From NCBI GenBank assembly GCA_028694105.1, contig JAQUUC010000003.1, positions 1 through 64,000 on the forward strand: a stretch of DNA of 64,000 bases, in the 5' to 3' direction. The position numbers were made by a program, and so were the translations under genes. Of the stretch, positions 1,601 to 18,133 are shown piece by piece; positions within the stretch are counted from its first letter, which is position 1; each line of letters opens with the position of its first letter. The notes beneath the pieces are model-generated. The model ran no database searches, had not been told where the DNA came from, and saw nothing but the letters and a program-made list of their open reading frames with translations. The stretch is from Hespellia sp. (GTDB lineage Bacteria; Bacillota; Clostridia; Lachnospirales; Lachnospiraceae).

Positions 1601-2500
1601 TCACTTCCATTTCTTTTCTTTACAGGTCCATTTCTTATCAAAAGTTTGTCCATCAATGATTGATATTATCACTGGTTCCATAAAAATGTGTATTCGGTCT
1701 AATGTCTCTTGAAAGTTTAGTTCTGCCTCTTTTGCAGGTTCGAATGCTTTCCATTGTGTACTAAGAAACTGATTATCTGCAAAAACTGCAATTTTTTCAA
1801 ATTCGCCCCGCCTCAGTGCATGTCCCCTATGCTCGGATGTCTTTTGAACCGCCTCTGATAATAGTTTTCCCTCAAAGTCAAACATATTGGATAAATAGTA
1901 AATATCAAAAAAGTCCTTCATTCTGCTTGTGGTTTCCATACGCTGCAGTATGGCATCCATTTTCTCTGCAATTGTACTTTCTATAGAGTAAGTGCATATT
2001 TCAGGTTTAGAAAATCCTTCTAATCTAGTAGTCAATGCACGTATTTCTGCATTTGGAACAATCACATCATCAATACCTACATCTATTGAAAATGGTACCT
2101 TTACATTTTTTATTTTACCAATCAATTTTGTTTTCACACCCGGATATTTCTTTTCTAATGTAATCTGTTCTGCTCCGGTTACTTCCAGCGTTATATAATC
2201 ATTTTCACTTTCTTGTTCACAAATTTCCTGCATCACAGATTGAATATTGCTTAGTTCATTGGACATCCAGCGAATCATAAAGTCCATATCTCTGGTAGGT
2301 CTACTGTCAAATTGGGTTAATGTATATATAAACATACCCCCTTTTAAAATCATATTATCTCTAAATTTTGAAGTTGATAATCTTCTTAAAAATTCCTCCT
2401 GAAAGAAAAGCTGAAGACTTAACTGATAGTTAATCCCTTCCTTCTTTGCCTGATTCTTTAATCTGGCCAATATTGATGCTTCAATATTAGTTATAGCCAT
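1601..2500 (-). CDS. AbiEii/AbiGii-family nucleotidyltransferase toxin
   Basis: NMILKGGMFIYTLTQFDSRPTRDMDFMIRWMSNE and IAEKMDAILQRMETTSRMKDFFDIYYLS motifs; overlaps the upstream antitoxin ORF. Confidence 0.85.
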   Translation of the reverse strand: MAITNIEASILARLKNQAKKEGINYQLSLQLFFQEEFLRRLSTSKFRDNMILKGGMFIYTLTQFDSRPTRDMDFMIRWMSNELSNIQSVMQEICEQESENDYITLEVTGAEQITLEKKYPGVKTKLIGKIKNVKVPFSIDVGIDDVIVPNAEIRALTTRLEGFSKPEICTYSIESTIAEKMDAILQRMETTSRMKDFFDIYYLSNMFDFEGKLLSEAVQKTSEHRGHALRRGEFEKIAVFADNQFLSTQWKAFEPAKEAELNFQETLDRIHIFMEPVIISIIDGQTFDKKWTCKEKKWK

Positions 2501-3105
2501 ATCGCAAGTACCTCCCTTACCTTTTTCTCTACACGTAGCAACTTTGCATACTCCGCCAGTCTTACCCTGTCTTTTTTATCATCTCGAAGATAATGTTGAA
2601 TTGCAAAATTAAATACCTCTGCATCGATCTTCTTTCTATGCAGAAGACAATCACATATTGTTCTGTCCCTATCATAAATAGATATTTCAACCCCGTCTAT
2701 TTTCACTTTTACTGCACCTGCAAGCAGACGATCGGTGGCAATAAAGTGTGGTTTAATCAGTGGATAGTCTATTTCAAATCTGGTTCTTGCACTTTTATTA
2801 TCAACTGCAATATGCCATGCTGAAGGTGTTCTTTCTGTGTATCCATAGTAATCCAGTGCACTTTCCATACAGATAATGCTATCTGGAAAGAGCTTTGCAA
2901 TCAAAGGTATATCAGAAAAAGAGTTTTCGTCCATATACTGATAATACCCTCTGCGAATCTGCTCGACCTCGCCATTATCTATCAATTGTTTTAGATTCCT
3001 ATAATAAATTCCGTTTTCATTGAGCTGCGATGTACGCATAACACCGTCATATTTTTTAAATATGTTTTTTACATTTTTTTTCATCTTTTCTCCAATACAA
3101 CACAT
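2491..3105 (-). CDS. AbiEi-type antitoxin / transcriptional regulator
   Basis: N-terminal wHTH-like KYDGVMRTSQLNENGIYYRNLKQLIDNGEVEQIRRGYYQY; 10-nt overlap with AbiEii. Confidence 0.85.
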   Translation of the reverse strand: MCCIGEKMKKNVKNIFKKYDGVMRTSQLNENGIYYRNLKQLIDNGEVEQIRRGYYQYMDENSFSDIPLIAKLFPDSIICMESALDYYGYTERTPSAWHIAVDNKSARTRFEIDYPLIKPHFIATDRLLAGAVKVKIDGVEISIYDRDRTICDCLLHRKKIDAEVFNFAIQHYLRDDKKDRVRLAEYAKLLRVEKKVREVLAIWL

Positions 3106-3227: not shown

Positions 3228-4061
3228 CTACTGCACAGTCTGGGACAAACGGTTCTTCAGCTCCATATAGCGCGCCCGGCTGACGGGAAGCTCCTGCCCG
3301 TTGGTCAGAACAACTTTGTACCGGCAGAAGGATGCGATGTGAGTGATATTGACGGCGTAGCTCTTATGGATGCGCAGGAACTCGGCAGGCATCTTCTTGA
3401 AATATTCCGCCAGAAGACCGACCGCCTCGAAATCCCCGGTGCTCGTGCACACGGTGCAGTTCTGGTTTGCCGCCTTCAGATAGAGGACCTCTGTGCTGCG
3501 CGGATAGCGGAACATACCATCCCTGCCGCGGAAGACCAGCTTGTCCACATCGGAATTCATCGCATCCATCCGTTTCATGTAGTTGAAAAAGGGAGAATGC
3601 TCTGTCAGACGGTCCTGCGGAAGCGGAATCTGATTCAGCGGAATATCCTGCGCATGGGAGCCGTGGACATGAACCAGCCGAAGCTCACCGTCCATCCGCC
3701 GCCAGACATAGGTTCCCCGCACATGTGCATAGATCACGCTGCCATCCGACAGCGCCGCGGTGGCCTTGTACCGGCCATAGACAACCCATACATTGTGCTC
3801 GTGGAACAGCAGATGGTATTCTTCATCTGACAGCATGACGGACGGCTCCTGATATTCGTTCTCTGTCACCCGCAAAAATTCCTCCAGCCCTTCACACCAC
3901 TGGAAATCATTCGAGCCAATCCACATAAAATCGTCCGACATCGGGGCGGTAGTGTAGCCCTTGTCGCGGTAGTAGAAGCTGCGGACATTCTCCATCGTCC
4001 TGCGAATCAGTTCTTCATCACTGATAAATTGTTTCCCCATTCCATTTTCCTCCGGTTCCAT
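3228..4061 (-). CDS. SnoaL-like domain fused to a LytTR DNA-binding domain
   Basis: C-terminal LYLKAANQNCTVCTSTGDFEAVGLLAEYFKKMPAEFLRIHKSYAVNITHIASFCRYKVVLTNGQELPVSRARYMELK = LytTR; N-terminal YRDKGYTTAPMSDDFMWIGSNDFQWCEG SnoaL/NTF2-like. Confidence 0.8.
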   Translation of the reverse strand: MEPEENGMGKQFISDEELIRRTMENVRSFYYRDKGYTTAPMSDDFMWIGSNDFQWCEGLEEFLRVTENEYQEPSVMLSDEEYHLLFHEHNVWVVYGRYKATAALSDGSVIYAHVRGTYVWRRMDGELRLVHVHGSHAQDIPLNQIPLPQDRLTEHSPFFNYMKRMDAMNSDVDKLVFRGRDGMFRYPRSTEVLYLKAANQNCTVCTSTGDFEAVGLLAEYFKKMPAEFLRIHKSYAVNITHIASFCRYKVVLTNGQELPVSRARYMELKNRLSQTVQ

Positions 4062-4149: not shown

Positions 4150-4178
4150 TTGACATCACTTTGGGGATGCGGTAAAAT
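4150..4178 (+). promoter_or_regulatory. Candidate sigma-A promoter of the pilus locus
   Basis: TTGACA (4150-4155), 17-bp spacer, TAAAAT (4173-4178). Confidence 0.6.
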
Positions 4179-4405: not shown

Positions 4406-4615
4406 ATGAGTGGAGATAGGAAGCCCGCGAGTACCTTCATTGTGAAAATTCTGGAACAACAGAACGCCACATGGCAGGGGAACATTACATGGGTGGAAGA
4501 GAATAGAGAACAGTATTTCCGTAGCACCTTGGAATTACTTAAGATGATAGACGGTGCATTAGTGAAACAGAACGAAGCAGTTGAAGGGAAAGAAGGAGGA
4601 AGCCATGAGAAGTAA
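4406..4615 (+). CDS. Small conserved-looking protein (69 aa) preceding the adhesin gene
   Basis: AAAAGGAGTCGG upstream; TFIVKILEQQNATWQGNITWVEENREQYFRSTLELLKMIDGAL; 3' end overlaps the adhesin start. Confidence 0.65.
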   Translation: MSGDRKPASTFIVKILEQQNATWQGNITWVEENREQYFRSTLELLKMIDGALVKQNEAVEGKEGGSHEK

Positions 4616-7600
4616 TAGAAAGAGAAGATTAATAGCATTAGTGCTTTGCATGGTGCTCGTGCTCGGCGGAAGCGTCCCATCACTTTTATTTGATAGTTTT
4701 AACGCAGACGAGATCAGTAGTGGGGAGAACGCTCCGGAAGTACAGAGCGAGACAGAAGAAGCACAGGAGCCGGTAGCAGTAGAGGAACCGGCAGCAGCAG
4801 AGGAGCCGGCGGTGCAGGAACCAGCGGCAGTGCAGGAACCGGCGGCAGAGACCGTGGTAGAGGAACTGGCAGCACCATATCAGGATGCGGTAGAACTGAA
4901 GCAGGACCTGTACGACGCAGAGGGGAATGTCATCTGCACCGTTACAGCGAAGATTCCGGCAGAGACATTCGCAGCGAACACTTCCGAAGTGACGATGGAA
5001 GTGAAGCAGACAGACACAGAGACAGCGGATGCAGTTAAGGCACTGATGGAAAAGAGCCTTGCAGAAGACAAAGTATTAGGCAGTTACTTCTTATATAATG
5101 TAGAGTTCAAAGTCAACGGAGAGAAGACAGAACCCGGGAAAGCAATCGACCTTACATTTGAACAGAAGGATTTCCAAATCGGAGATGTAAAAAAAGCGAG
5201 CGCGATCTATTATAATGAAGCAAATTCCATCGCAGGAAATACAGAAGCAGAGATCATCGGAATCACTCAGAGAAATGACAAGATCGAAGAACTTCAAAAT
5301 GCAGGACAGAGTCTTGACACGATGGATGAAGATTACGACTTATCAGAATTTACATTGAACGAAGATGGAACAGCACAGAAGATTCAGATGGACGCAAGAC
5401 GCTCCACCATCTACGGCTGCTTCCTTACAGAAGACAAACCGGCAGACACAGCTGCAGGAGATACAGCAGCCGATACGGGAACAACAGTTCCGGACACAAC
5501 GGTTCCGGATACAGCAGGTGACAACATCTATACAATGGATGATCAGACAGACAACACAGCTGATTCAGATATTATGACAGAGGAACCAACCGAGGAAGTC
5601 ATAACAGATTCACTTACATATGAAGATAATGATGTAACAGTAACAGTTAGTGCAAATGAAAAAGGAATTATCCCAGAGGGAGCAACACTTCAGGTTATTC
5701 CAATTTTGCCGGAGACGCAGGCGAGTGTTACAACAGCCTCAACAATTGCAGTGCCGGAGAAAAAAGAAGCAACAACACTTTCTGCAGCTGCAAATCAATC
5801 AGCAGAAGCAAAGGTAGTTACCCCGGCAAGTTCAGCAAGCGAATACGAAAAAGTAAAAACTCAGCTGGAGGAAAAAGCAGAGAATGAAGATTACGACATC
5901 GCAGGTTTCCTCGCTTATGATATCAGCTTCATCGACAAAGATGGCAACAAAGTAGAACCGAACGGAAATGTAAAAGTAGTCATCGACTACAAGCAAGAAG
6001 CAATTCCGGAAGGTGTCAATGCAGAAGACGATCTTGATGTAACGGTAATGCATTTCGAGGAGAACAGTGCTGGTAATGTCAAAGATGTAGTCGACATGGT
6101 AGCAGATGATACGAAGACAGCTGCAGTGGAAACGACAGACAGTGCGCAGGTAAAAAAAGCAGAATTTGAAACGGACAGCTTTTCGACCTTTACGGTAACA
6201 TGGAAACGTTTCGGCAATAAGTACACGATTGGTATTCAATATGTAAACACAAATGGTGATTCAATAGATGGAAAAACGGGGAACAGTGACACATTAGATC
6301 CGGGCGATATCATTACTTTAAGTGATCCTACATACAATGTGAACATTCAAAATTATGCGTTTGATCATGCAGAGATAAGACCAGAGAATCAAGCAGTTAC
6401 AATTACTGGTGCGAGATATTATAGAAATAGTAGTGGGAACTCTAAAAATCGATATCAGTATACAACAGCTACTAGCCCATCGGCACAAAGCAATTGGAGT
6501 ACATATGATTATGGAAAAGCAGAGACAATTTATATGGTCTATAGACCGGCATATGAGTTCTATGATTTTAATGGAAACTCATTGACGAACAGTTCTTATC
6601 AGGCATTACTTGATGCGATGATAAAGAATGTTGAGACGGATCCCGATGTTTCAATTAAAAACTGGACGCGTTCAAGCAAATATGTTAATTTGACGAAACT
6701 TACTAATGAAAGTACTAGTAACTGGAATTGGAACAGCTTAAGTTCACTGAATTTGGATCTAACGGATGCTTCACAGGTTTGGGACGGTTCGCGGTTGAAC
6801 AGCGCTGGTCGGGTGAACCACAACTATAATAATTATATTGATCGCTATGGCAGCGGAGCAGGTGATTATCATGATACTGTCTCAGTATATAATAATGAGC
6901 TTCTTGATTCGGCAACATGGAAAAAAGACGATAATGCTAACCAATCGACATCTTCCATGTATCGTTTCAGAGGAGAATTTACGATTCCGGAGAATATGAA
7001 TCCAAACGAGTATTCATTTACATTGGATCAGGTTACACCGGGAAACAGTATTTATATCAACGATGATGTGTACGTATTTGTTTATCCAAAGAATGTAACG
7101 TTGACTAATGATAACTTCATGGACTATCTGGCATTCTGGACTGGGACAGCAAATCAGTCAGGAACAATTTCTTTCCATGGAAGAATAGGAACGCAGGTAG
7201 AACAGAGTACTGATAGCAATGTGAATAAATATTCTGATTATTCCAAAGTAACAGATGGCTGGAAGATGGCGGCGGTGGAAGATAATGCCGCAAATGCTAT
7301 TCTGAATGCATATAGGCAAAATGGAACAAAAGATTTTTATGTAGATGTTATCACCGATGATTACGATGGTGGTGGCGGAATGTATCGTCTGAAGATGGAG
7401 ACAAACCTACAGAAAAGATATCCGGTAGAGTTTACAAAGGTAGATGTAATTGATATGGCAACGCCGGTTGCAGGTGCAAAGTTTGAACTCGATCAGGTGG
7501 ACTCTGATGGAAAAGCAACAGGGGTTCATTATGATACAACATCAGGAAGTGATGGAAAAGTAACAGTCAACGTAGTTGCTGGTATTTATCATATGACAGA

Positions 7601-10202
7601 GACGGCACCGACAGGTTATTATCAGCCAAATGGAAAATGGATCGTAACGGTAAGGAGTGGTGGAAGCTATACAATTACATGGGACGGCGATACTACAGGC
7701 AATAATGCAAGCAGCATTAGCGGAAGCCAAGGCAGTTATAAAATTCCGAACAAAAGTAGTGTTAGAGGAAATTACAGCTTCAAGAAAGTGAATTCAAAAG
7801 GAGTAGGACTTTCCGGAGCAGAATTCACGATGACATCAGAGGATGGAACAACAAAAGTTTACACATCAGGTTCAGATGGAACAGTTACAATATCTGGTTT
7901 GCTGGTCGGAACATATACAGTTACTGAGACGAAAGCACCAAGTGGTCTAATTGCATCGACAGATACATGGGTGATTGAAGTGACTTCGGATGGAACGACA
8001 ACTATGTATAAACAGGGGGATGAGACAAAGACCGAGGTTACACAGGTTGTTAACTATACTGAAAAAGAGCAGACATTAAGTACATTGACAAATGGAAAAA
8101 CCGCAAAAGTGGTCGACGAAGCAAACAGAGTTTTCCAGATTGATTTATCCGCAGCCGTAACTGGCGGAACAGAAGGAGAAGCCGCAACACCGATTAGCGC
8201 AGTATTGGTATTAGATGCAAGCGACTCATTGTCACTCGATACTTTTGGTAAGGTTCAAACGGCAGCTGAAGCTTTTATAACATCATTGAAAACGGCATCG
8301 CCTCAAAGTGAGGTGGCAATTGTTTGGTATCAAGGGTCAGAAGGTAGTACAAACTTGTCGATAACTAATAGTGAGTTCCGAACGATTGATAAGAATCAAA
8401 ATGTAACTTATCTGAACAATTTCATTAAGGACATGGACAAGGGCGGCGGAACACCAATGGGAGCTGCGCTGGAACGTGCAGATTCAATTTTAAGCGGTCG
8501 GCAAAATGAAAATAAGTACGTTCTACTATTTACAGATGGAATGCCGGGACATAACTCCTCTAAGGAAAGCTTTAACTGTAGGGTCGCAAATCATGCATAT
8601 AATTATGCGAAAACGATTAAAGAATATGCGGTTTTATATACCGTGGGATATGGATTGAGTGATGAAGATGAATTTACATGGAGTGTTGGACATACGGCTA
8701 CAAGTAATAATGCCAAGGACCATGGGAACCACGAGCTTACAACAAAAGCAACAAATTTCTTAGAAAATTATATTGCAACAAGGGCAAGTGGAGATAATAA
8801 ATATGCTTTAACAACTTCTGATTCAAATGAGTTAGAAAAACTGTTTAGGCAAATTGCAGAGCAAGCAGGATCACTTCATTCCCTTGCAGCGAAAAGTATT
8901 GTTGATGTGATTGATTCAAGATTTGAATTGACAGCAGCGAGCGAAGCGGCATTGAAGGCAAAATATGGCAACGATATTTCAATAGACAGAAATGCAAATG
9001 GAACAACAACGATTACATGGACTGGGGATTCTGCTATTGTTAAGAATCAGCAGGACGGTGGCTGGACAGCATCACTTCAGGTTAAGGCAAAAGAGGATTT
9101 CATCGGAGGAAATATGGTTCCGACCAATGGAGCCGGATCTGGTATTGTTGTAGATGATGAGACATTTAGAACATTCCCGAGTCCATCGGTTAATGTGAAA
9201 TTGCTCGAACCAAGTATAGGAGAGAAAGAAATTACGCTTTATAAAGGCGATACAATTGAATCCAGCGGGTTTGCAGAAGAGGTTTATAGGACCTTTAATG
9301 TAAAAGAATTGGATGGCACGACAACATTAAGTCCGGATAGTGCGTCAACAGTAGTTACTGGAATTAAGGGCTTGACAGCAGAGGATCTTACAGCTTTAAC
9401 AAATGGAACAACGATACGCAAAGATTATGCTTATCCGGGAACAACAGATGTTGTAGGACATTTTGAATATGCATTTGCTCCGGCAACGGATGAAAATGGT
9501 GATGTTCAGGGGAGAGTTCAAGATCATGGAGCCAACGAAGTAGGACATCATGTCGAACAATATCAGCTTGTAGTCAAATTTGTTCCGGACACAGTAGCAG
9601 ATAGAATAATAGATTTACCTGGAACAAATCAGCCAACCACCGAAGGTGGAACAGTTGTTACGTATACATCGGTAACAGGCGATTATTGGGTAAATGTATT
9701 AGCCAGATGGAACATCATTAAGCGAAGTGCAAGTAATCACGATAACTTATTAGGTGGCGCAGAGTTTGAACTGAAGTTGAACAACACAACAAAATACTAT
9801 GGTGTGTCCAGTGAGACGACAGGAGTGGTGAAGTGGTATACAGATGCAAATCACACAGCTGAAAATCTGATTGATTTATATAAGATGGAACCGGGAACCT
9901 ATACAATGGAAGAAACAAAAGCCCCGATGGGATATGTAGTGTATGAAGGAAACTGGACAGTAGTGATTGATGAGAATGGATTACTCACGAGCATAAAATC
10001 AGGAAATGATGATGTGTTGAAAGTGGATAGTTCTGATGGTGCAAATGCATATTACTATTTTGATAATACCGTATTGTATGAATTACCAAATTCCGGTGGT
10101 ATCGGTATTTACTGGTATATGATCGGCGGTGTACTGCTTATGTTAGCAGCGGCCCTGATTCTATATAGAAATAAGAAATACGAGGGGGTGCTGAAAAAAT
10201 AA
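4605..10202 (+). CDS. Giant sortase-anchored pilus adhesin: vWA domain plus SpaA/Cna-B repeats, LPNSG sorting signal
   Basis: ATG 4605 after AGGAGG; signal peptide; MIDAS-like LVLDASDSLS and LLFTDGMPGHN; E-boxes YHMTETAPTGY, YTVTETKAPSGL, YTMEETKAPMGY; C-terminal LPNSGGIGIYWYMIGGVLLMLAAALILYRNKK. The ORF track uses an upstream TTG at 4581. Confidence 0.9.
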   Translation: MRSNRKRRLIALVLCMVLVLGGSVPSLLFDSFNADEISSGENAPEVQSETEEAQEPVAVEEPAAAEEPAVQEPAAVQEPAAETVVEELAAPYQDAVELKQDLYDAEGNVICTVTAKIPAETFAANTSEVTMEVKQTDTETADAVKALMEKSLAEDKVLGSYFLYNVEFKVNGEKTEPGKAIDLTFEQKDFQIGDVKKASAIYYNEANSIAGNTEAEIIGITQRNDKIEELQNAGQSLDTMDEDYDLSEFTLNEDGTAQKIQMDARRSTIYGCFLTEDKPADTAAGDTAADTGTTVPDTTVPDTAGDNIYTMDDQTDNTADSDIMTEEPTEEVITDSLTYEDNDVTVTVSANEKGIIPEGATLQVIPILPETQASVTTASTIAVPEKKEATTLSAAANQSAEAKVVTPASSASEYEKVKTQLEEKAENEDYDIAGFLAYDISFIDKDGNKVEPNGNVKVVIDYKQEAIPEGVNAEDDLDVTVMHFEENSAGNVKDVVDMVADDTKTAAVETTDSAQVKKAEFETDSFSTFTVTWKRFGNKYTIGIQYVNTNGDSIDGKTGNSDTLDPGDIITLSDPTYNVNIQNYAFDHAEIRPENQAVTITGARYYRNSSGNSKNRYQYTTATSPSAQSNWSTYDYGKAETIYMVYRPAYEFYDFNGNSLTNSSYQALLDAMIKNVETDPDVSIKNWTRSSKYVNLTKLTNESTSNWNWNSLSSLNLDLTDASQVWDGSRLNSAGRVNHNYNNYIDRYGSGAGDYHDTVSVYNNELLDSATWKKDDNANQSTSSMYRFRGEFTIPENMNPNEYSFTLDQVTPGNSIYINDDVYVFVYPKNVTLTNDNFMDYLAFWTGTANQSGTISFHGRIGTQVEQSTDSNVNKYSDYSKVTDGWKMAAVEDNAANAILNAYRQNGTKDFYVDVITDDYDGGGGMYRLKMETNLQKRYPVEFTKVDVIDMATPVAGAKFELDQVDSDGKATGVHYDTTSGSDGKVTVNVVAGIYHMTETAPTGYYQPNGKWIVTVRSGGSYTITWDGDTTGNNASSISGSQGSYKIPNKSSVRGNYSFKKVNSKGVGLSGAEFTMTSEDGTTKVYTSGSDGTVTISGLLVGTYTVTETKAPSGLIASTDTWVIEVTSDGTTTMYKQGDETKTEVTQVVNYTEKEQTLSTLTNGKTAKVVDEANRVFQIDLSAAVTGGTEGEAATPISAVLVLDASDSLSLDTFGKVQTAAEAFITSLKTASPQSEVAIVWYQGSEGSTNLSITNSEFRTIDKNQNVTYLNNFIKDMDKGGGTPMGAALERADSILSGRQNENKYVLLFTDGMPGHNSSKESFNCRVANHAYNYAKTIKEYAVLYTVGYGLSDEDEFTWSVGHTATSNNAKDHGNHELTTKATNFLENYIATRASGDNKYALTTSDSNELEKLFRQIAEQAGSLHSLAAKSIVDVIDSRFELTAASEAALKAKYGNDISIDRNANGTTTITWTGDSAIVKNQQDGGWTASLQVKAKEDFIGGNMVPTNGAGSGIVVDDETFRTFPSPSVNVKLLEPSIGEKEITLYKGDTIESSGFAEEVYRTFNVKELDGTTTLSPDSASTVVTGIKGLTAEDLTALTNGTTIRKDYAYPGTTDVVGHFEYAFAPATDENGDVQGRVQDHGANEVGHHVEQYQLVVKFVPDTVADRIIDLPGTNQPTTEGGTVVTYTSVTGDYWVNVLARWNIIKRSASNHDNLLGGAEFELKLNNTTKYYGVSSETTGVVKWYTDANHTAENLIDLYKMEPGTYTMEETKAPMGYVVYEGNWTVVIDENGLLTSIKSGNDDVLKVDSSDGANAYYYFDNTVLYELPNSGGIGIYWYMIGGVLLMLAAALILYRNKKYEGVLKK

Positions 10203-10305
10203 GATTATGAAAACAAATTTCAGTGGCCTCAAGTACCACAAAAGAGGTAGGAACAAGTAGTAAAAACTTTACACTAAAATTATGAAAAAGAAGAGGAGAT
10301 TAAAC

Positions 10306-11676
10306 ATGAGTAAAGTAAAGAAAATTTTAGCCTTAGTATTATCTATGGCAATGATTATGGGAATGAGTATTACATCATTCGCAGCAGATCCAGCAACAAA
10401 TGGAAAGATCACGATTAAAGGTTTGACGGCATCAGAACAAACAACCATTAAATTATATCAGGTTGTTTCATGGAGTCAGGCAGACAGTAACTGGGTGATA
10501 GCTGAGTGGGCAAAGGACCATGTAACAAAAAACACAGAAACGGGTGAATATACCTTTGACTGGGATGCATTAAAAACTGCAGCAGCAGGTCAGACACCAG
10601 TTAGAGAGAACGCAGTAACAGCTGCTACTGCAGAGTTTGATAATTTAGGTATTGGAGCATTTTTAATTATTGCAGCAGGAACTACAACAGAATATAGTGT
10701 TATGGGAACAACTACATATGGATATAACAGCGACAATCTGATGGTTCCAACAGATGTAGAGGTTGATGCGAAAGCTTCTAACTATACGGTAGTAAAGAAA
10801 TTTACAAATGATGCGGATAAGGAACGTGTTGTAAATCGTGGAGAGATTATTAGTTTCGATATTGACACAACATTCCCAAGTTATGATTCTGATACTGTAA
10901 ATCGAACATTTACAATTACAGATACGCCAACAGGTTTGAAGATTCAGACAATTACTGTAACTGTAGACGGAACACCAGTTGTACTTGACACTGACTATAA
11001 GTTGTTAGATAAAGATCAGGCAGATGCAACTCTGCCAGCTGCTGCAAATGCAGCTGTTACAGTTTCATTCGCTCAGAGCTATATTGGTAATACAAATGTG
11101 CATGCAGGATCAGCTGTTAAAGTAACCGTAACAGCAGAAGTGACAGGCGATGGATCTGAGGAAATTTCAAATACAGCAACAACAGACAAGGCTGATGAGC
11201 CTTCAAAAATTATTGTAGAGACTGGATCTATTACAATCAATAAAGTTGATGAGAATAATGATGTTTTGAAAGGTGCATTATTCAGCGTAGCAAATACTTC
11301 TGGTAAACTTCAGTTTGTTGAAGTTGAGACAGGTGTATACAGATTAGCTAATGCAGCAGAAATCGCTGATGATGGTGTTGAGAAAATCACAAATGTTGCA
11401 GCAACTAATGGATCAGTTGTTGTAAAAGGATTAGCAGAAGGAACATATAAAATTGTCGAGGAACAGGCTCCAGATGGCTATTCTATTGTAACAGTAGAGG
11501 ATCAGACAATTGGCAAAGGCCAGAACAAAAATGTAACAGTTAAAGTAACAGATACAAAGCTTTCTTCACTTCCATCAACTGGTGGTATTGGTACAACAAT
11601 CTTCACAATCGGTGGTTGTGCAATCATGATCATTGCAGCATTCCTTTACTTCAGAAGCCGCAAAAAAGAGCAGTAA
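10306..11676 (+). CDS. Major pilin-like SpaA-type protein, LPSTG sorting signal
   Basis: GAGGAG then ATG 10306; signal peptide; YKIVEEQAPDGY E-box; LPSTGGIGTTIFTIGGCAIMIIAAFLYFRSRKKEQ. Confidence 0.9.
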   Translation: MSKVKKILALVLSMAMIMGMSITSFAADPATNGKITIKGLTASEQTTIKLYQVVSWSQADSNWVIAEWAKDHVTKNTETGEYTFDWDALKTAAAGQTPVRENAVTAATAEFDNLGIGAFLIIAAGTTTEYSVMGTTTYGYNSDNLMVPTDVEVDAKASNYTVVKKFTNDADKERVVNRGEIISFDIDTTFPSYDSDTVNRTFTITDTPTGLKIQTITVTVDGTPVVLDTDYKLLDKDQADATLPAAANAAVTVSFAQSYIGNTNVHAGSAVKVTVTAEVTGDGSEEISNTATTDKADEPSKIIVETGSITINKVDENNDVLKGALFSVANTSGKLQFVEVETGVYRLANAAEIADDGVEKITNVAATNGSVVVKGLAEGTYKIVEEQAPDGYSIVTVEDQTIGKGQNKNVTVKVTDTKLSSLPSTGGIGTTIFTIGGCAIMIIAAFLYFRSRKKEQ

Positions 11677-11704
11677 TTATAAATAACCAGAGTCAGTAGA
11701 CTCT

Positions 11705-11744
11705 TACATCTACGGCGAGGTCTTCGGACCTTGCCAAAGATGTA
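11705..11744 (+). promoter_or_regulatory. Strong intra-operon stem-loop with TTCG loop between major pilin and sortase
   Basis: TACATCTacGGCgAGGTC-TTCG-GACCTtGCCaaAGATGTA. Confidence 0.75.
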
Positions 11745-11770
11745 TAAATACAACAACAAGGAGAGCCCGG

Positions 11771-12649
11771 ATGAAAAAGAAGACAAATACATTGATTATC
11801 TGCATAGTGTTTTTAGCCGGTTTGTCCTTACTGCTGTATCCATTTGTAGCAAATCAGTGGAACAATTACAGACAGTCGAAGCTAATCAGTAATTACGAAG
11901 CTGTGGTAGCAGACAAAGAAGCCGCTGGTGAGATTGATTATGAGGCGGAGATGGAACAGGCAGTGGCATATAATGATGCGCTGCTTCCAAGCATTTTACC
12001 GGATTCTTTTGCAATTGCAGAAGCTTCCGAAGATGAGGATAAGCGGTACATGTCTTGTCTGAACATCGCTGATGATGGGATGATGGGAACGGTTGAGATA
12101 CCGAAGATCAACATTAAGCTTCCGATTTATCATACGACCGATGACAAGGTTCTGCAGCAGGCAGCCGGTCATCTGGAGGGAAGTTCACTTCCGGTCGGCG
12201 GCGAGAACACACACGCGGTCATTTCCGCACACAGAGGACTGCCGAGTGCATCACTTTTTACCGATCTGGATAAGTTAAAAAAGGGAGATCATTTTCTGAT
12301 TAAAGTATTGGATCAGACATTATGCTATGAGGTCGACAAGATTTCCGTTGTGGAGCCAAAGGAGACAGAGGCGCTTGCAGTGGAGGACGGACAGGATTTG
12401 GTTACATTACTTACCTGCACTCCTTACGGAGTGAATTCGCAGAGACTTCTGGTGCGCGGGCACAGAGTACCGTATGAGGAGACCGAGATGGCGGATGAGG
12501 AATCACCGCTGAACAATTTCAGTCTGCATACAAGTTATCTGTTCTGGGTTATTACAGGACTTGTGATTACCGGAGGATTTATATTCGTTTTATATAGACG
12601 CGATAAGAAAAGACGCGCGGCTGTGGCAGAGGAACCAAAGAAGGAGTAA
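11771..12649 (+). CDS. Class C (pilus-polymerising) sortase
   Basis: YPFVANQWNNYRQSKLISNYE, GGENTHAVISAHRGLPSASLFTDLDKL, TLLTCTPYGVNSQRLLVRGHRV; two TM segments. Confidence 0.93.
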   Translation: MKKKTNTLIICIVFLAGLSLLLYPFVANQWNNYRQSKLISNYEAVVADKEAAGEIDYEAEMEQAVAYNDALLPSILPDSFAIAEASEDEDKRYMSCLNIADDGMMGTVEIPKINIKLPIYHTTDDKVLQQAAGHLEGSSLPVGGENTHAVISAHRGLPSASLFTDLDKLKKGDHFLIKVLDQTLCYEVDKISVVEPKETEALAVEDGQDLVTLLTCTPYGVNSQRLLVRGHRVPYEETEMADEESPLNNFSLHTSYLFWVITGLVITGGFIFVLYRRDKKRRAAVAEEPKKE

Positions 12650-12651
12650 CT

Positions 12652-13557
12652 ATGAAGAAGAAGCTACCATCGATCCTGTTTGGTCTGATTTTTCTAATTG
12701 GCTTTGGAATTCTGATGTATCCGACGATTTCCAATCAGTGGAATACGTATCGGCAGAGCAAACTGATCAGTAATTATGAACAGGTTGTCAGCAAAATGGA
12801 GCCGGAGGATTTCACCCAGCAGTGGGATATGGCAAATGCATTTAACAGCACAATCACGCAGAACAATGTATATGCGGATGTGTTTGGAGCTTCCGAGGAG
12901 GATAAACTCACCGGAACGGAATACTGGAATGTCCTCAATATAGCAGGGGACGGAGTGATGGGATATCTGTCCATCCCGAAGATTCGTATTAAGATTGCGA
13001 TTTATCATGGGACAGGAGATGAGGTACTCCAGACCGGAATCGGTCATCTGAACGGAACGAAACTTCCGATCGGCGGAGAGAGTACACACAGTGTGCTTGC
13101 GGCACACAGAGGTCTTCCGAGTGCGAAGCTGTTCACGGACGTGGATCAGCTGGAGAAGGGAGATAAGTTTTACATTCATGTGCTGGATGAGGTGCTGGCT
13201 TATCAGGTCGACCAGATTCTCCCAATGGTGGAGAAAGATGATCATGCGACCCTGGAGGAGGCACTGAAGATAGAAGATGGGAAGGATGAGGTTACCTTAT
13301 TTACCTGTACACCGTATGGTGTGAATTCTCACCGGCTTCTTGTGAGGGGAACCAGAGTTCCTTATAACGGGGAGGAAGAAGAGAGTGATTCGGTAGGTAA
13401 TTCCATGTTGAAATCGATCCAGAATTACTACATGTTATATCTGATATTAGGATTGGCAGTTACACTATTAGTGATATTTATAATGAGGCATTTCTTTCAT
13501 AAGAAGGCAAAGCCGGGAACTGTAGAAGTGGGAAAGTCTGAGAAAGACGAGGAATAG
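12652..13557 (+). CDS. Class C sortase (second copy)
   Basis: YPTISNQWNTYRQSKLISNYE, HSVLAAHRGLPSAKLFTDVDQL, TLFTCTPYGVNSHRLLVRGTRV. Confidence 0.93.
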   Translation: MKKKLPSILFGLIFLIGFGILMYPTISNQWNTYRQSKLISNYEQVVSKMEPEDFTQQWDMANAFNSTITQNNVYADVFGASEEDKLTGTEYWNVLNIAGDGVMGYLSIPKIRIKIAIYHGTGDEVLQTGIGHLNGTKLPIGGESTHSVLAAHRGLPSAKLFTDVDQLEKGDKFYIHVLDEVLAYQVDQILPMVEKDDHATLEEALKIEDGKDEVTLFTCTPYGVNSHRLLVRGTRVPYNGEEEESDSVGNSMLKSIQNYYMLYLILGLAVTLLVIFIMRHFFHKKAKPGTVEVGKSEKDEE

Positions 13558-13579
13558 TTCTGAAGGGAGATACGATGCG

Positions 13580-14572
13580 ATGATGAAAAAGAGAGGAAGA
13601 ATAGGCAGTGCATTTATGCTTGCGGCGATACTTGCAATTTCAGTGGTTACTGTACCGAAGGTACAGGCTGCGACAGAAGTTGTCGATAAGGCTTGTTCGA
13701 TTGAATTCCAGATGGGTGGAGAATTTGAGGAGCTGAGCGATGGAACGGTGAGTGTTCCGGTAAAGCTGTATAAGGTTGCATCGATCAATGCATCCGGCAA
13801 CTATACGGCGGAAGGTGCATTTGCATCGATGGATTTTAGCTCTGTCAGTGATTCAACGACAGCAGAGGAGTGGCTTAAGATGGCGGAGTCTGCGGATGAA
13901 CTGGTAACAGCAGACATGACAGCTGACGCAGAGACAACGGTTACGAACGGAACCGGACAAATCGGGAATCTTGCAATCGGACTGTATCTGGTGAAGGCTG
14001 AGACTTCACAGTCACCATATTATAACTACAGTTTTACACCGTACCTCATTTCCCTGCCGGATAATCATTATGCTGCGACCGGAGATGATACTTGGATTTA
14101 TGATCTGACCGGAGAGAATGCGGTGGGATTGAAACCGGAGCAGGATGCGAGACTGAATGATCTGGAGATTACAAAGACCCTGACCACGCAGAACATTACG
14201 ATGGGCAGGCCTGCAACATTTGTGTTTGAGGCGGTCATTACAACCCTGAAGGGTGAGACGATGACGAAGAATGTGGCACTTACCTTTGATTCTGCCACGA
14301 CGAAGAAGCTGCTGATCAAAGACCTTCCGGCAGGCTCGACGGTTGTTGTGACTGAGGTTTACAGCGGTGCAAGCTACGAGGTTACAGGTGATTCTGAGCA
14401 GACGCAGGTGATTGATGCAGAGAACGTAGTTGGAGTTGCATTTACCAATGACCATGACGGAAAAGTGAATGGCGGATACGGTATCGTAAATAATTACAAA
14501 TATGACGGCGAAGGTGAATACGACCATACACAGTTAGAAGATAATTCAGAGCCGTCAGCGCAGTCACAGTAG
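13580..14572 (+). CDS. Secreted pilin-like protein (Cna-B-like) without LPXTG or C-terminal anchor
   Basis: Signal peptide ending KVQAAT; VPVKLYKVASINASGNYT, IGNLAIGLYLVKAETSQSPYYNYSFTPYLISLP; C-terminus YDHTQLEDNSEPSAQSQ hydrophilic. Confidence 0.75.
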   Translation: MMKKRGRIGSAFMLAAILAISVVTVPKVQAATEVVDKACSIEFQMGGEFEELSDGTVSVPVKLYKVASINASGNYTAEGAFASMDFSSVSDSTTAEEWLKMAESADELVTADMTADAETTVTNGTGQIGNLAIGLYLVKAETSQSPYYNYSFTPYLISLPDNHYAATGDDTWIYDLTGENAVGLKPEQDARLNDLEITKTLTTQNITMGRPATFVFEAVITTLKGETMTKNVALTFDSATTKKLLIKDLPAGSTVVVTEVYSGASYEVTGDSEQTQVIDAENVVGVAFTNDHDGKVNGGYGIVNNYKYDGEGEYDHTQLEDNSEPSAQSQ

Positions 14573-14584
14573 AGGAGGAGATGA

Positions 14585-15091
14585 GTGATGATGAAACGAA
14601 TAAATAAAAAGACGATTCTCCTGTCAGGAGCGGCATTTGCTCTTACAGCATCTCTTTCCGTTGGAAGTGCATTTGCTTACTTTACCACTTATGCGAATTC
14701 CAAAGGAACGGTTCCGGTGAAGATGGGATTTACGGAGACGGTACCGCAGGAAAAGGTGGATCAGGACGGCAAGCATGTCACAATTAAGAATACCGGAAAG
14801 TATGACTGTTATGTCAGGGTCAAGGTATTTGCTGACATTGCAGTGACCTACCAGGGCGGAGCTGACTGGACGCAGGGAGACGGCGATTACTGGTATTACG
14901 GATCGATCCTTCCGGCAGGGGGAGAGACACCGGAGCTTTTGGTATCGTACAGTTATCCGGATACAGAGGTTGAAAACCCCACAGAAGAGTTTAACATTAT
15001 CGTAGTGCAGGAGTGTACTCCGGTTGTATATGATGATAATGGTGATCCGAAGCCGGACTGGAATCATGTTATTACGACGCAGCAAGACTAA
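14585..15091 (+). CDS. TasA/camelysin-like secreted protein (SipW-dependent type signal)
   Basis: KKTILLSGAAFALTASLSVGSAFAYFTTYANSKGTVPVKMGFTET resembles TasA/CalY family N-termini. Confidence 0.75.
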   Translation: MMMKRINKKTILLSGAAFALTASLSVGSAFAYFTTYANSKGTVPVKMGFTETVPQEKVDQDGKHVTIKNTGKYDCYVRVKVFADIAVTYQGGADWTQGDGDYWYYGSILPAGGETPELLVSYSYPDTEVENPTEEFNIIVVQECTPVVYDDNGDPKPDWNHVITTQQD

Positions 15092-15107
15092 GAAGGAGGG
15101 AGACGAC

Positions 15108-15845
15108 ATGAAAAAGAAATCATTTTTTTTAAAACCGGCCCTGCTTCTTGCAGCATCAGGATTGCTGCTGCTTGGAAGTACAGTCGGAAGCGCAAGAGCG
15201 GCGCTTACTTATTATAGTGACAGTTATAACGCTCAGATGAGTTTATCGAGTATTGGTGTTACGCTTCTTGAAAACGGGGAGGCGGTCAGCAAGCAGGATT
15301 ATAAGGATAATGGTGTTGTGAGTGTCGGAAAGGGTGCACTTCTCACAGATCTGCTTGGTGAGAAGGAGAACCTGATTCCGGGAAAGAAGTATAACGAGTC
15401 ACTCAGTGTTCAAAATAGCGGGAACATTGATACCTTTGTCCGGGTGATTGTGACGAAGAGCTGGCTGAATGCAGATGGAACGACCAATCAGGAACTGTCA
15501 CCATCGCTGATCGAGCTTCAGCTGACATCTGGCAGTGGCTGGCAGGAGGATACTACAGCGGCAACGCCGGAGAGGCAGGTGTTCTATTATCAGCCACTCC
15601 TTGCAGCAGGAGATAAGACACCGAACATTATGGATACGATTCGAATTGATAATTCGATTGCGGATGAGGTGAATGTGATTCGCGAAGGAAACACAATTAA
15701 ATATGAATACAAATATGATGGCTGTACATTTTCACTGGAAGCAGAAGTAAATGCGGTACAGACACATAATGCAAAGGATGCAATTAAGAGTGCATGGGGT
15801 GTTGATGTGAATGTGAATGCGGATGAAACGCGGATAAGCTTATAG
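15108..15845 (+). CDS. TasA-like secreted protein (second)
   Basis: AAGGAGG then ATG 15108; PALLLAASGLLLLGSTVGSARAALTYYSDSYNAQMSLSSIGVTLLENG; NSGNIDTFVRVIVTKSW. Confidence 0.7.
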   Translation: MKKKSFFLKPALLLAASGLLLLGSTVGSARAALTYYSDSYNAQMSLSSIGVTLLENGEAVSKQDYKDNGVVSVGKGALLTDLLGEKENLIPGKKYNESLSVQNSGNIDTFVRVIVTKSWLNADGTTNQELSPSLIELQLTSGSGWQEDTTAATPERQVFYYQPLLAAGDKTPNIMDTIRIDNSIADEVNVIREGNTIKYEYKYDGCTFSLEAEVNAVQTHNAKDAIKSAWGVDVNVNADETRISL

Positions 15846-15861
15846 AAGGGGGTACAAAAGT

Positions 15862-16605
15862 ATGAGAAAGAAAATTTTGTGCCTTGCGTTAATCGCAGTT
15901 ATGGTGTTAGGCACATCAATGAATGTAGTGGCAAGAGATTTGCAGGGAAGTGATAACTGGCTTGTGAATTTTGATGGAAATGAACTGGATAGTAACTATA
16001 CATCCCAGAATGTTGCGGATGATTTGAAGGACTTTGCACCGGGTGACAATATTACGCTGAAGGTGAATGTGAAGAATTCATTTGCAGGAGATACGGACTG
16101 GTATATGACGAATGAGGTCATCCAGTCACTGGAGGATGCGAGTTCTGCATCGGGGGCGGCATATACGTACCGTCTGACTTATGTGGCACCGGATAACGCC
16201 GAGACGGTTCTCTATGACAGTGATACGGTCGGAGGCGAAGGCAGTACTCAGGCTGGGGAAGGTCTTCATCAGGCAACCGGTTCTCTGAAGGATTATATCT
16301 ACATGGGCAGACTGTCTCAGGGCAAGAGCGGCAGGGTACAGCTCTACATCGCATTAGACGGTGAGACCTCTGCGAATGACTATCAGGAAACGCTGGGAAA
16401 GATCCAGCTGAAATTTGCAGTGGAAAAGGTTGCAGCCGGAACGACAACGACTCAGAACCGGATCGTACAGAGTGTAGTGAAGACAGGTGATGATACAAGA
16501 CTGATGTTAATCAGTATTATCTTATTGATCAGTGGAATTGTTGTGTTGATTCTTGGTATCGTTACATGGAAGAGACAGAGAAAGCATCGTGAGGAAGGGG
16601 AGTAG
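15862..16605 (+). CDS. Membrane-anchored surface protein with VKTGD-like C-terminal sorting-type signal
   Basis: Signal peptide; C-terminal VVKTGDDTRLMLISIILLISGIVVLILGIVTWKRQRKHREEGE. Confidence 0.7.
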   Translation: MRKKILCLALIAVMVLGTSMNVVARDLQGSDNWLVNFDGNELDSNYTSQNVADDLKDFAPGDNITLKVNVKNSFAGDTDWYMTNEVIQSLEDASSASGAAYTYRLTYVAPDNAETVLYDSDTVGGEGSTQAGEGLHQATGSLKDYIYMGRLSQGKSGRVQLYIALDGETSANDYQETLGKIQLKFAVEKVAAGTTTTQNRIVQSVVKTGDDTRLMLISIILLISGIVVLILGIVTWKRQRKHREEGE

Positions 16606-16610
16606 CAGAG

Positions 16611-17540
16611 ATGAAAAATTGGAAAAAGATTTTTGTTTCGGTATTTACAATCTGCATGCTTCTGGCTTTATCAGGTGGAAGTGTGCTGGCGGCGGCTCCT
16701 TATCAGTATCAGGTGAGGGTATACGCCGGAAATAAAGGAAGTCTGGGCGGCGGCTCTGATCCTTATGTATTTTCTGATATTACATCGGGAGATTCGGTTG
16801 ATTTGAGAACTGCCAGTGTGCAGGTTACGGATACAAAGTATTACTGGAAGGGTTTTCGTGTCAGTGGACGTGACAAGAGAGAGATTATTCCAAAGGAAAG
16901 CGCAATCGTGAAGGTGACGTCGGATGTCGATTATGTAGTTGCCTACGGAGTGATGTCCCAGCGTGTGGCTTATACGGTGAATTATCAGGATGCGAACGGG
17001 AATACACTGGCTCCAAGTAATACGTACTATGGTGACATCGGTGACAGACCGGTGGTCGCATATCAGTATATTGAGAACTATGTTCCGCAGGCATATGCAG
17101 TGACAAGAACATTGAGCGCAAATGAAGCGGATAATGTATTTACATTTACGTATACACCGGGAGCGACCAATACGGTTGTGACGACCACGACGGTCAATAC
17201 GATCACTGGAACGGCGGCGGGAACAACGGCGGCCGGAGCAACAGGTGCAGCAGCCACAACGACAGCAACACCGGAAGATGCAGCTGTGGCAGATGCGAAT
17301 GCAGGAGCAGCGGATGCCATAAATAATGCAGCTGCAAATGATACCACAGTGAACAGCCCGGATGAAGAGACACCTCAGGCACTGCAGGATCAGGATGAGG
17401 AGACACCGACATCAAATATTGATGCATCGAGTGGCATTTCTCCAGCTACAGTCGCAATCATTGTCGGCGCAGCAGCATTACTTGCACTGGTAGGTTTAGG
17501 ATTCTTCCTTTACAAGAAACGCACCGGTGGTGTAGAATAG
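16611..17540 (+). CDS. MucBP-like surface protein with Thr/Ala-rich linker and C-terminal TM anchor
   Basis: VAYTVNYQDANGNTLAPSNTYYGDIGDRPVV MucBP-like; AATTTATPEDAAVADANAG linker; IVGAAALLALVGLGFFLYKKR. Confidence 0.7.
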   Translation: MKNWKKIFVSVFTICMLLALSGGSVLAAAPYQYQVRVYAGNKGSLGGGSDPYVFSDITSGDSVDLRTASVQVTDTKYYWKGFRVSGRDKREIIPKESAIVKVTSDVDYVVAYGVMSQRVAYTVNYQDANGNTLAPSNTYYGDIGDRPVVAYQYIENYVPQAYAVTRTLSANEADNVFTFTYTPGATNTVVTTTTVNTITGTAAGTTAAGATGAAATTTATPEDAAVADANAGAADAINNAAANDTTVNSPDEETPQALQDQDEETPTSNIDASSGISPATVAIIVGAAALLALVGLGFFLYKKRTGGVE

Positions 17541-17599
17541 ATATGGACGCAGCCGGCAGTTGGCGGTTGTGAAAATATTGGGCATAGGGGAAACTTGCT

Positions 17600-18133
17600 G
17601 TGAGAAAAAAAAGAAACAGAGATGAACATAAGAGAAGCCCAGTAGCTGCAGTCTGCAGTGTACTGGGCACTGTTTTACTTGTGATACTGATTATTGGCTG
17701 TCTGCCGCTTACGGTGCCGAAGATGCTTGGCTATCATATGTATACGGTGGTCAGCGGAAGTATGGAGCCGGCGATTCCTACGGGAAGTCTGGTGTATATC
17801 AAGACGACGGTTCCGGCGGAGGAGATTCAGGCGGACGATGTCATCGCCTTCTATGAAGAGCTGGATACGACTTCGATCATTACGCACCGTGTCGTGAAGA
17901 ATAATACGAACATGGGTCGTTTTACAACGAAGGGCGATGCCAATAAAGAGAAGGATATGAACCCGATCGCGTATGATGACTATGTCGGCAAGGTCGTGCT
18001 TTCGGTTCCGTATGTGGGTGGAATTGCCCAGACGATTACGACGGGATCCGGAAGACTTCTGACGGTCAGTATCATTCTGATCGCCGTTCTGCTGGAAATT
18101 ATTGCGACGGTTCTCCGGCGTGAGAAGGAATAG
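17600..18133 (+). CDS. sipW: Signal peptidase I, SipW-like
   Basis: GTG start; GYHMYTVVSGSMEPAIPTGSLVYIKT, ITHRVVKN, FTTKGDANKEKDMNPI, YVGKVVLSVPYVG (SipW/SEC11-type). Confidence 0.9.
   Translation: MRKKRNRDEHKRSPVAAVCSVLGTVLLVILIIGCLPLTVPKMLGYHMYTVVSGSMEPAIPTGSLVYIKTTVPAEEIQADDVIAFYEELDTTSIITHRVVKNNTNMGRFTTKGDANKEKDMNPIAYDDYVGKVVLSVPYVGGIAQTITTGSGRLLTVSIILIAVLLEIIATVLRREKE

Follow-up and report, generated by a model that had tools for sequence, protein, structure and literature searches.

Sortase pili and TasA fibers are usually treated as separate ways in which Gram-positive bacteria build fibers. SpaA/EbpB-type sortase pili combine a tip adhesin, an LPXTG major pilin and class C sortases, as does the locus described here, which differs from them in having an extra pilin-like subunit without a sorting signal and in that its genome yielded sortases of classes C and B only, none of class A, D or E. 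The S. pyogenes FCT pilus region also unites a signal-peptidase-fold protein (SipA) and a sortase (class B) in one pilus locus, and to our knowledge it contains no TasA-like subunits. SipA lacks catalytic residues (PMC4049620), whereas the SipW of our locus is of the Ser-His type. The B. subtilis tapA-sipW-tasA and B. cereus TasA/CalY/CapP systems resemble it in having beta-rich subunits that SipW processes and whose mature N-terminus is conserved (PMC9674648, PMC13082335), but the B. cereus system, as described, works independently of sortases. Finally, the C. perfringens sipW-bsaABCRSD operon, which specifies the BsaA biofilm matrix, resembles this type of locus in its SipW, a SipW-dependent protein of the BsaA family, accessory secreted proteins and an adjoining class B sortase gene, srtB; BsaA forms free extracellular polymers, and deletion of srtB is without effect (PMC7395162). 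Class C sortases and a pilin, both present here, have not been reported in that operon, nor has a cnaB adaptor such as the one proposed here, and our proteins do not reach the BsaA family cut-off. The literature search, limited to open-licence papers, turned up neither a composite sortase-TasA/BsaA fiber nor a SipW-sortase B fusion, and such absence is weak evidence of novelty. If true, a conserved machine joining both would be an example of how covalent assembly and strand exchange can be coupled.

The locus occupies positions 4406-18133 of the window (the whole 64,000-nucleotide stretch of DNA analyzed), on a contig of 125,939 bases in a genome of 3.2 Mb. Its nearest named relative is in a Hespellia MAG (74% identity in tasA2), and the named relatives are Lachnospiraceae. 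As originally predicted, all the genes were found in one co-oriented block: ten genes and a small leading ORF are tightly packed on the forward strand, in the order small ORF, tip adhesin, major pilin, srtC1, srtC2, cnaB, tasA1, tasA2, vktgd, mucbp and sipW (Table 1). From gene spacing only, we infer that the block is co-transcribed.

Table 1. Features of the window and SipW-sortase B fusions at related loci (fusion positions are those of the named locus)
Feature	Position	Strand	Evidence or remark
LytTR-type regulator, divergent; candidate local regulator	3228..4061	-	C-terminal LytTR-like sequence; role suggested by position only
Promoter-like site TTGACA-17-TAAAAT, upstream of block	4150..4178	+	11/12 consensus matches; consensus match only
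Small ORF FIVKILEQQNATWQGNITW, function unassigned, overlaps tip start	4406..4615	+	Homologues recur near other cassettes and SipW/pilus loci
Tip adhesin: SpaA domains, vWA, LPNSG sorting signal	4605..10202	+	Pfam SpaA 136 bits, VWA 43 bits, Gram_pos_anchor
Major pilin: SpaA domain, LPSTG, conserved K156	10306..11676	+	Family searches
srtC1, class C sortase (TLLTC)	11771..12649	+	NF033745 286 bits
srtC2, class C sortase (TLFTC)	12652..13557	+	NF033745 268 bits
cnaB, proposed adaptor: pilin-like N-domain with K185, DUF5979/Cna-B C-domain, no sorting signal	13580..14572	+	
tasA1, TasA/BsaA-like SipW-type secreted protein	14585..15091	+	TIGR04090 sub-threshold
tasA2, TasA/BsaA-like SipW-type secreted protein	15108..15845	+	TIGR04090 36.1 bits (cut-off 60); homologue of tasA1
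vktgd, secreted, VKTGD-TM-basic tail; proposed class B sortase substrate	15862..16605	+	
mucbp, MucBP-like, C-terminal membrane anchor	16611..17540	+	
SipW-like Ser-His signal peptidase, GTG start	17600..18133	+	TIGR02228 87.9 bits; one copy in genome
SipW-SrtB fusion	L148:4680-5975	-	
SipW-SrtB fusion	L151:12438-13676	+	
SipW-SrtB fusion	L097:12504-13841		
SipW-SrtB fusion	L098:12510-13847		
SipW-SrtB fusion	L105:11993-13264		

Family searches bore out the sortase-pilus parts claimed for the block, namely a vWA/SpaA tip adhesin, a major pilin and two class C sortases. Both sortases are well above the NF033745 cut-off of 160 bits, and the tip adhesin combines a vWA domain with three stretches of SpaA and an anchor of the LPXTG type. 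The pilin scores 87 bits against an NF033902 cut-off of 95 and lacks the YPKN consensus; among relatives, its body is highly variable (33% mean identity) and its sorting signal is conserved. The candidate base pilin would be cnaB, which has neither a wall-sorting signal nor a transmembrane (TM) segment. As only class C and B sortases were found in the genome, there is no SrtA-type anchor for a normal pilus base; its two class B sortases are located away from the block. The distances of SrtC2 correlate better with those of cnaB (Spearman 0.67) and SipW (0.69) than with those of the pilin (0.29), a soft comparison, as saturation of the pilin distances may contribute to the low value. Outside the window, the same contig carries a second, ordinary sortase pilus of three genes (L185, G000:C62:69494-73431), composed of an LPKAG protein, an IPGTG pilin and a class C sortase, with no adjoining TasA-like or SipW gene.

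The label of the two proteins described as TasA/camelysin-like needed correction: PF12389 (camelysin/TasA) matched nothing in the genome or in the proteins, and neither tasA1 nor tasA2 reached the cut-off of any Pfam family. BsaA-like and SipW-dependent is the description that fits, the nearest named family being BsaA (TIGR04090), where tasA1, at 19.5 bits, stays like tasA2 below the 60-bit cut-off; at E <= 0.01, this family matched 10 of 13 tasA1 and 11 of 13 tasA2 family members. The two proteins are homologous to each other (hhalign 96.6%), and their mature N-termini, AYFTTY in tasA1 and RAALTY in tasA2, are conserved in at least 90% of about 80 sequences; nothing comparable is seen in the pilin, cnaB, vktgd or mucbp. 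In B. subtilis TasA, the residues right behind the signal peptide are the donor strand that builds the fiber (PMC9674648). By analogy with the Bacillus systems, tasA1 and tasA2 probably assemble by donor-strand exchange, with which the conservation of their N-terminal strands is consistent, though it is not proof. The AF2 models of the subunits are beta-rich and weak (pLDDT around 70), and with such low-confidence models Foldseek gave no match at E <= 0.001; the TasA fiber 8aur ranked 16th for tasA2 (E 0.021, TMq 0.31) and was not among the matches listed for tasA1. These matches are too weak, and Foldseek was rejected as proof of a TasA fold. A PDB sequence search with the tasA2 and vktgd profiles returned nothing credible, and no relatives of tasA2 were detected in the viral contigs searched.

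The predicted dedicated SipW-type peptidase was upheld by its signal peptidase I score, above the TIGR02228 cut-off of 51.85 bits, and by its Ser-His motifs: SGSM and ITHRV are kept, with S54 and H96 conserved. It is below the Bacillus SipW equivalog NF046067 (96.2 bits against a cut-off of 190).

The tasA2 profile was used to scan one genome for each of 84,980 species, which gave 282 relatives, and the best 80 of these 282 loci were read; since this named set is biased to close relatives, mostly Lachnospiraceae, proportions were also taken from an even family sample. The core cnaB-tasA1-tasA2-vktgd-mucbp was co-oriented in 79 of these best 80 loci, with median gaps of -4 to 14 nt. Of the named loci with enough DNA, 55 of 59 had a class C sortase immediately upstream; sipW was nearby in 63 of 67. 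In the even family sample, tasA2 was present in 32 of 396 genomes (30 of 317 genera), and 32 of the 45 units read from it, a count made by hand from tables and including the window, had a class C sortase in the same block. A five-gene order found in 79 of 80 loci, together with class C sortases in 32 of 45 units, argues that the neighborhood is not due to chance. In a class-level sample the profile was rare (7/391), and the matches outside the family consisted of tasA2-vktgd with mucbp or sipW and no class C sortase. Because of these, we infer that the SipW/TasA-like core seems wider, and is probably older, than its partnership with the sortase pilus. Carriers of the block include gut Lachnospiraceae such as Blautia, Mediterraneibacter, Coprococcus comes, Eubacterium ramulus and Dorea relatives, and therefore it bears on the gut attachment of major commensals. 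A complete cassette (L067) was also seen on a contig labeled Faecalibacillus intestinalis SNUG30099, by name outside Lachnospiraceae, either by horizontal transfer or by contamination; the TLxTC signature was not detected in its sortase ORFs.

Some loci have tandem arrays. In one of them (G439:C14:129679-159395, comprising L148 and L149), three units repeat the tip, pilin, cnaB, tasA1, tasA2, vktgd and mucbp, although not all in every unit, and a second (G520:C4:11089-36675, L150 and L151) is similar. In both arrays, one SrtC pair and one terminal SipW-SrtB are common to all the units. In the second array, all that is left of the middle unit is a cnaB-like protein, which has a GPKTGD sorting signal at its end.

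The original prediction listed an unanchored Cna-B-like protein as an addition to the two fiber systems. That it has no sorting signal was confirmed; that it is a mere extra was not, as cnaB is likely the link between the pilus half and the TasA-like half. By hhalign, its N-domain is related to that of the major pilin (probability 95, E 3.7e-8), and K185 is placed against the pilin K156, a correspondence which falls at the end of the alignment. In the C-domain (DUF5979/Cna-B), K199, E259 and N290 are kept, as expected of a domain with an internal isopeptide bond. Next to a class C sortase, every distinct cnaB copy (89 of 89) has the pilin-like N-domain, and the homologue in the middle unit of the G439 array, also sortase-adjacent, shows WNYNVKIYPK, the canonical pilin motif. 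Of 81 aligned copies, 77 have K185; one of the remaining copies is truncated, and the three substitutions are exactly the giant cnaB forms of loci with neither pilin nor sortase. At sortase-less loci, the N-domain is swapped for adhesins, giving proteins of approximately 1,000 to 3,600 residues with the same C-domain end. These fusions comprise three mutually unrelated adhesin groups on the shared C-domain, and the tasA2 tree needs three changes, two of them forced by well-supported branches (at least 2-3). The N-domain was apparently replaced by a large adhesin three times. The exceptions are L036, L037 and L088, which keep the N-domain and K185 with no class C sortase nearby; their genomes have one elsewhere.

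SipW and a class B sortase are fused in one protein in several Lachnospiraceae genera. In the fusions of the tandem arrays and of L105, both halves match their own NCBIfam families on one ORF, while in that of L097 the SipW half matches and the sortase half is just below its cut-off. Seven genomes from genus g156 and a single one from g492 gave full-length matches, which include G948, G965, G978, G988, G1019 and G662; as fused sequences were part of the SipW profile alignment, the profile also matched neighboring class B sortases, which is the source of double matches. Counting fused and separate genes alike, 14 of 67 named loci and 7 of 41 in the even sample have a class B sortase no more than 3.5 kb from mucbp. 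At the C-terminus of vktgd, a conserved [VPIA][KRQ]TGD is followed by a TM segment and a basic tail; the motif is VKTGD in the window, PKTGD in some homologues and NPNTGD, NPRTGD or NPQTGD in the copies of the G439 and G520 arrays, and the class B type tested was [NSP]PxTG with a TM segment and basic tail. Given the SipW-SrtB fusions, the class B sortases near mucbp and the NPxTGD forms, VKTGD is probably a class B sortase wall-sorting signal. Of the VKTGD-type membrane-anchored protein first proposed, the motif, TM segment and basic tail therefore stand, and the plain membrane anchor probably does not. A role for vktgd as a third TasA-like subunit was rejected, as hhalign gave 2.4% with tasA2 and matched tasA1 only through the signal peptide. 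The other membrane-anchored protein, mucbp, does have a C-terminal membrane anchor, while its MucBP score (16.5 bits) is below the Pfam cut-off of 23.

On balance, we lean towards the reading that the block encodes one wall-rooted adhesive fiber in two parts, a sortase pilus and a TasA/BsaA-like base, with cnaB as the adaptor. In the distal part, LPSTG pilins would be covalently polymerized by SrtC1 and SrtC2 into a pilus that is tipped by the SpaA/vWA adhesin. The growing pilin chain would then be passed to the pilin-motif K185 of cnaB and, because cnaB has no sorting signal, polymerization is proposed to end there. At the base, the C-terminal DUF5979/Cna-B domain of cnaB would dock on tasA1/tasA2, whose conserved N-terminal strands would be freed by SipW, probably for donor-strand exchange. 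The base would be kept on the cell by mucbp, in the membrane, and by vktgd, which a class B sortase probably attaches to peptidoglycan. In loci without sortases and pilin, the adhesin would be fused directly to the docking domain. The model is built on observed gene content, order, conservation, domain swaps and fusions. A single structure is suggested by a pilin-like cnaB N-domain without sorting signal, the domain swaps, the tandem duplicates and the SipW-SrtB fusions. The composite appendage or matrix of the original prediction gains from synteny, duplication of the structural set, an adaptor-like cnaB and the fusions, with a physical link that is still putative. More tentatively, and with somewhat less than even confidence, we suggest a class of hybrid pili with a covalent shaft, a signal-less terminal acceptor pilin, a SipW-processed non-covalent base and a class B sortase wall anchor. 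Such an arrangement may answer how a pilus is rooted where a class A-type sortase is not found, and suggests that DUF5979, the C-terminal domain of unknown function in cnaB, has a docking role.

The two halves may instead be separate, co-regulated structures side by side, a sortase pilus and a free TasA/BsaA-like matrix fiber with no physical joint, the genes being held together by joint expression in biofilm or gut conditions. C. perfringens BsaA, which polymerizes alone, mainly extracellularly and independently of the neighboring srtB (PMC7395162), speaks for it, as do the occurrence of the SipW/TasA-like part without class C sortases in relatives and the ordinary pilus without TasA-like genes on the same contig. 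We nevertheless regard this explanation as rather unlikely, because the pilin-like N-domain, invariable in sortase-adjacent cnaB, is lost to fused adhesins when sortases are absent, both halves are copied in tandem units, and SrtC2 covaries with cnaB and SipW.

It is considerably less probable that the block is an ordinary sortase pilus to which SipW and the TasA-like proteins contribute as assembly helpers and not as structural parts. The signal-peptidase-like SipA is essential for pilus polymerization in S. pyogenes (PMC4049620), and tasA1 and tasA2 are small and might act as chaperones; however, the catalytic motifs lost in SipA are kept in the window SipW, the TasA-like core persists without pilin and sortases, and the conserved mature N-termini fit polymerizing subunits. 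That the VKTGD and MucBP proteins are just membrane tethers in a loose adhesin island formed by neutral clustering seems very improbable: a near-invariant order with near-zero gaps across some 30 genera and the domain swaps at cnaB speak against it, even if surface-protein genes often cluster and the pilin and tip vary strongly.

Two minor observations concern the DNA in and around the block. The gap between the pilin gene and srtC1 (11677-11770) contains hairpin-forming sequence, AGAGTCAGTAGACTCT and GGCGAGGTCTTCGGACCTTGCC, which may be an attenuator or an RNA-processing site. Upstream, on the reverse strand at 1601-3105, are two genes which, from reading only, resemble an AbiEi/AbiEii-type toxin-antitoxin pair.
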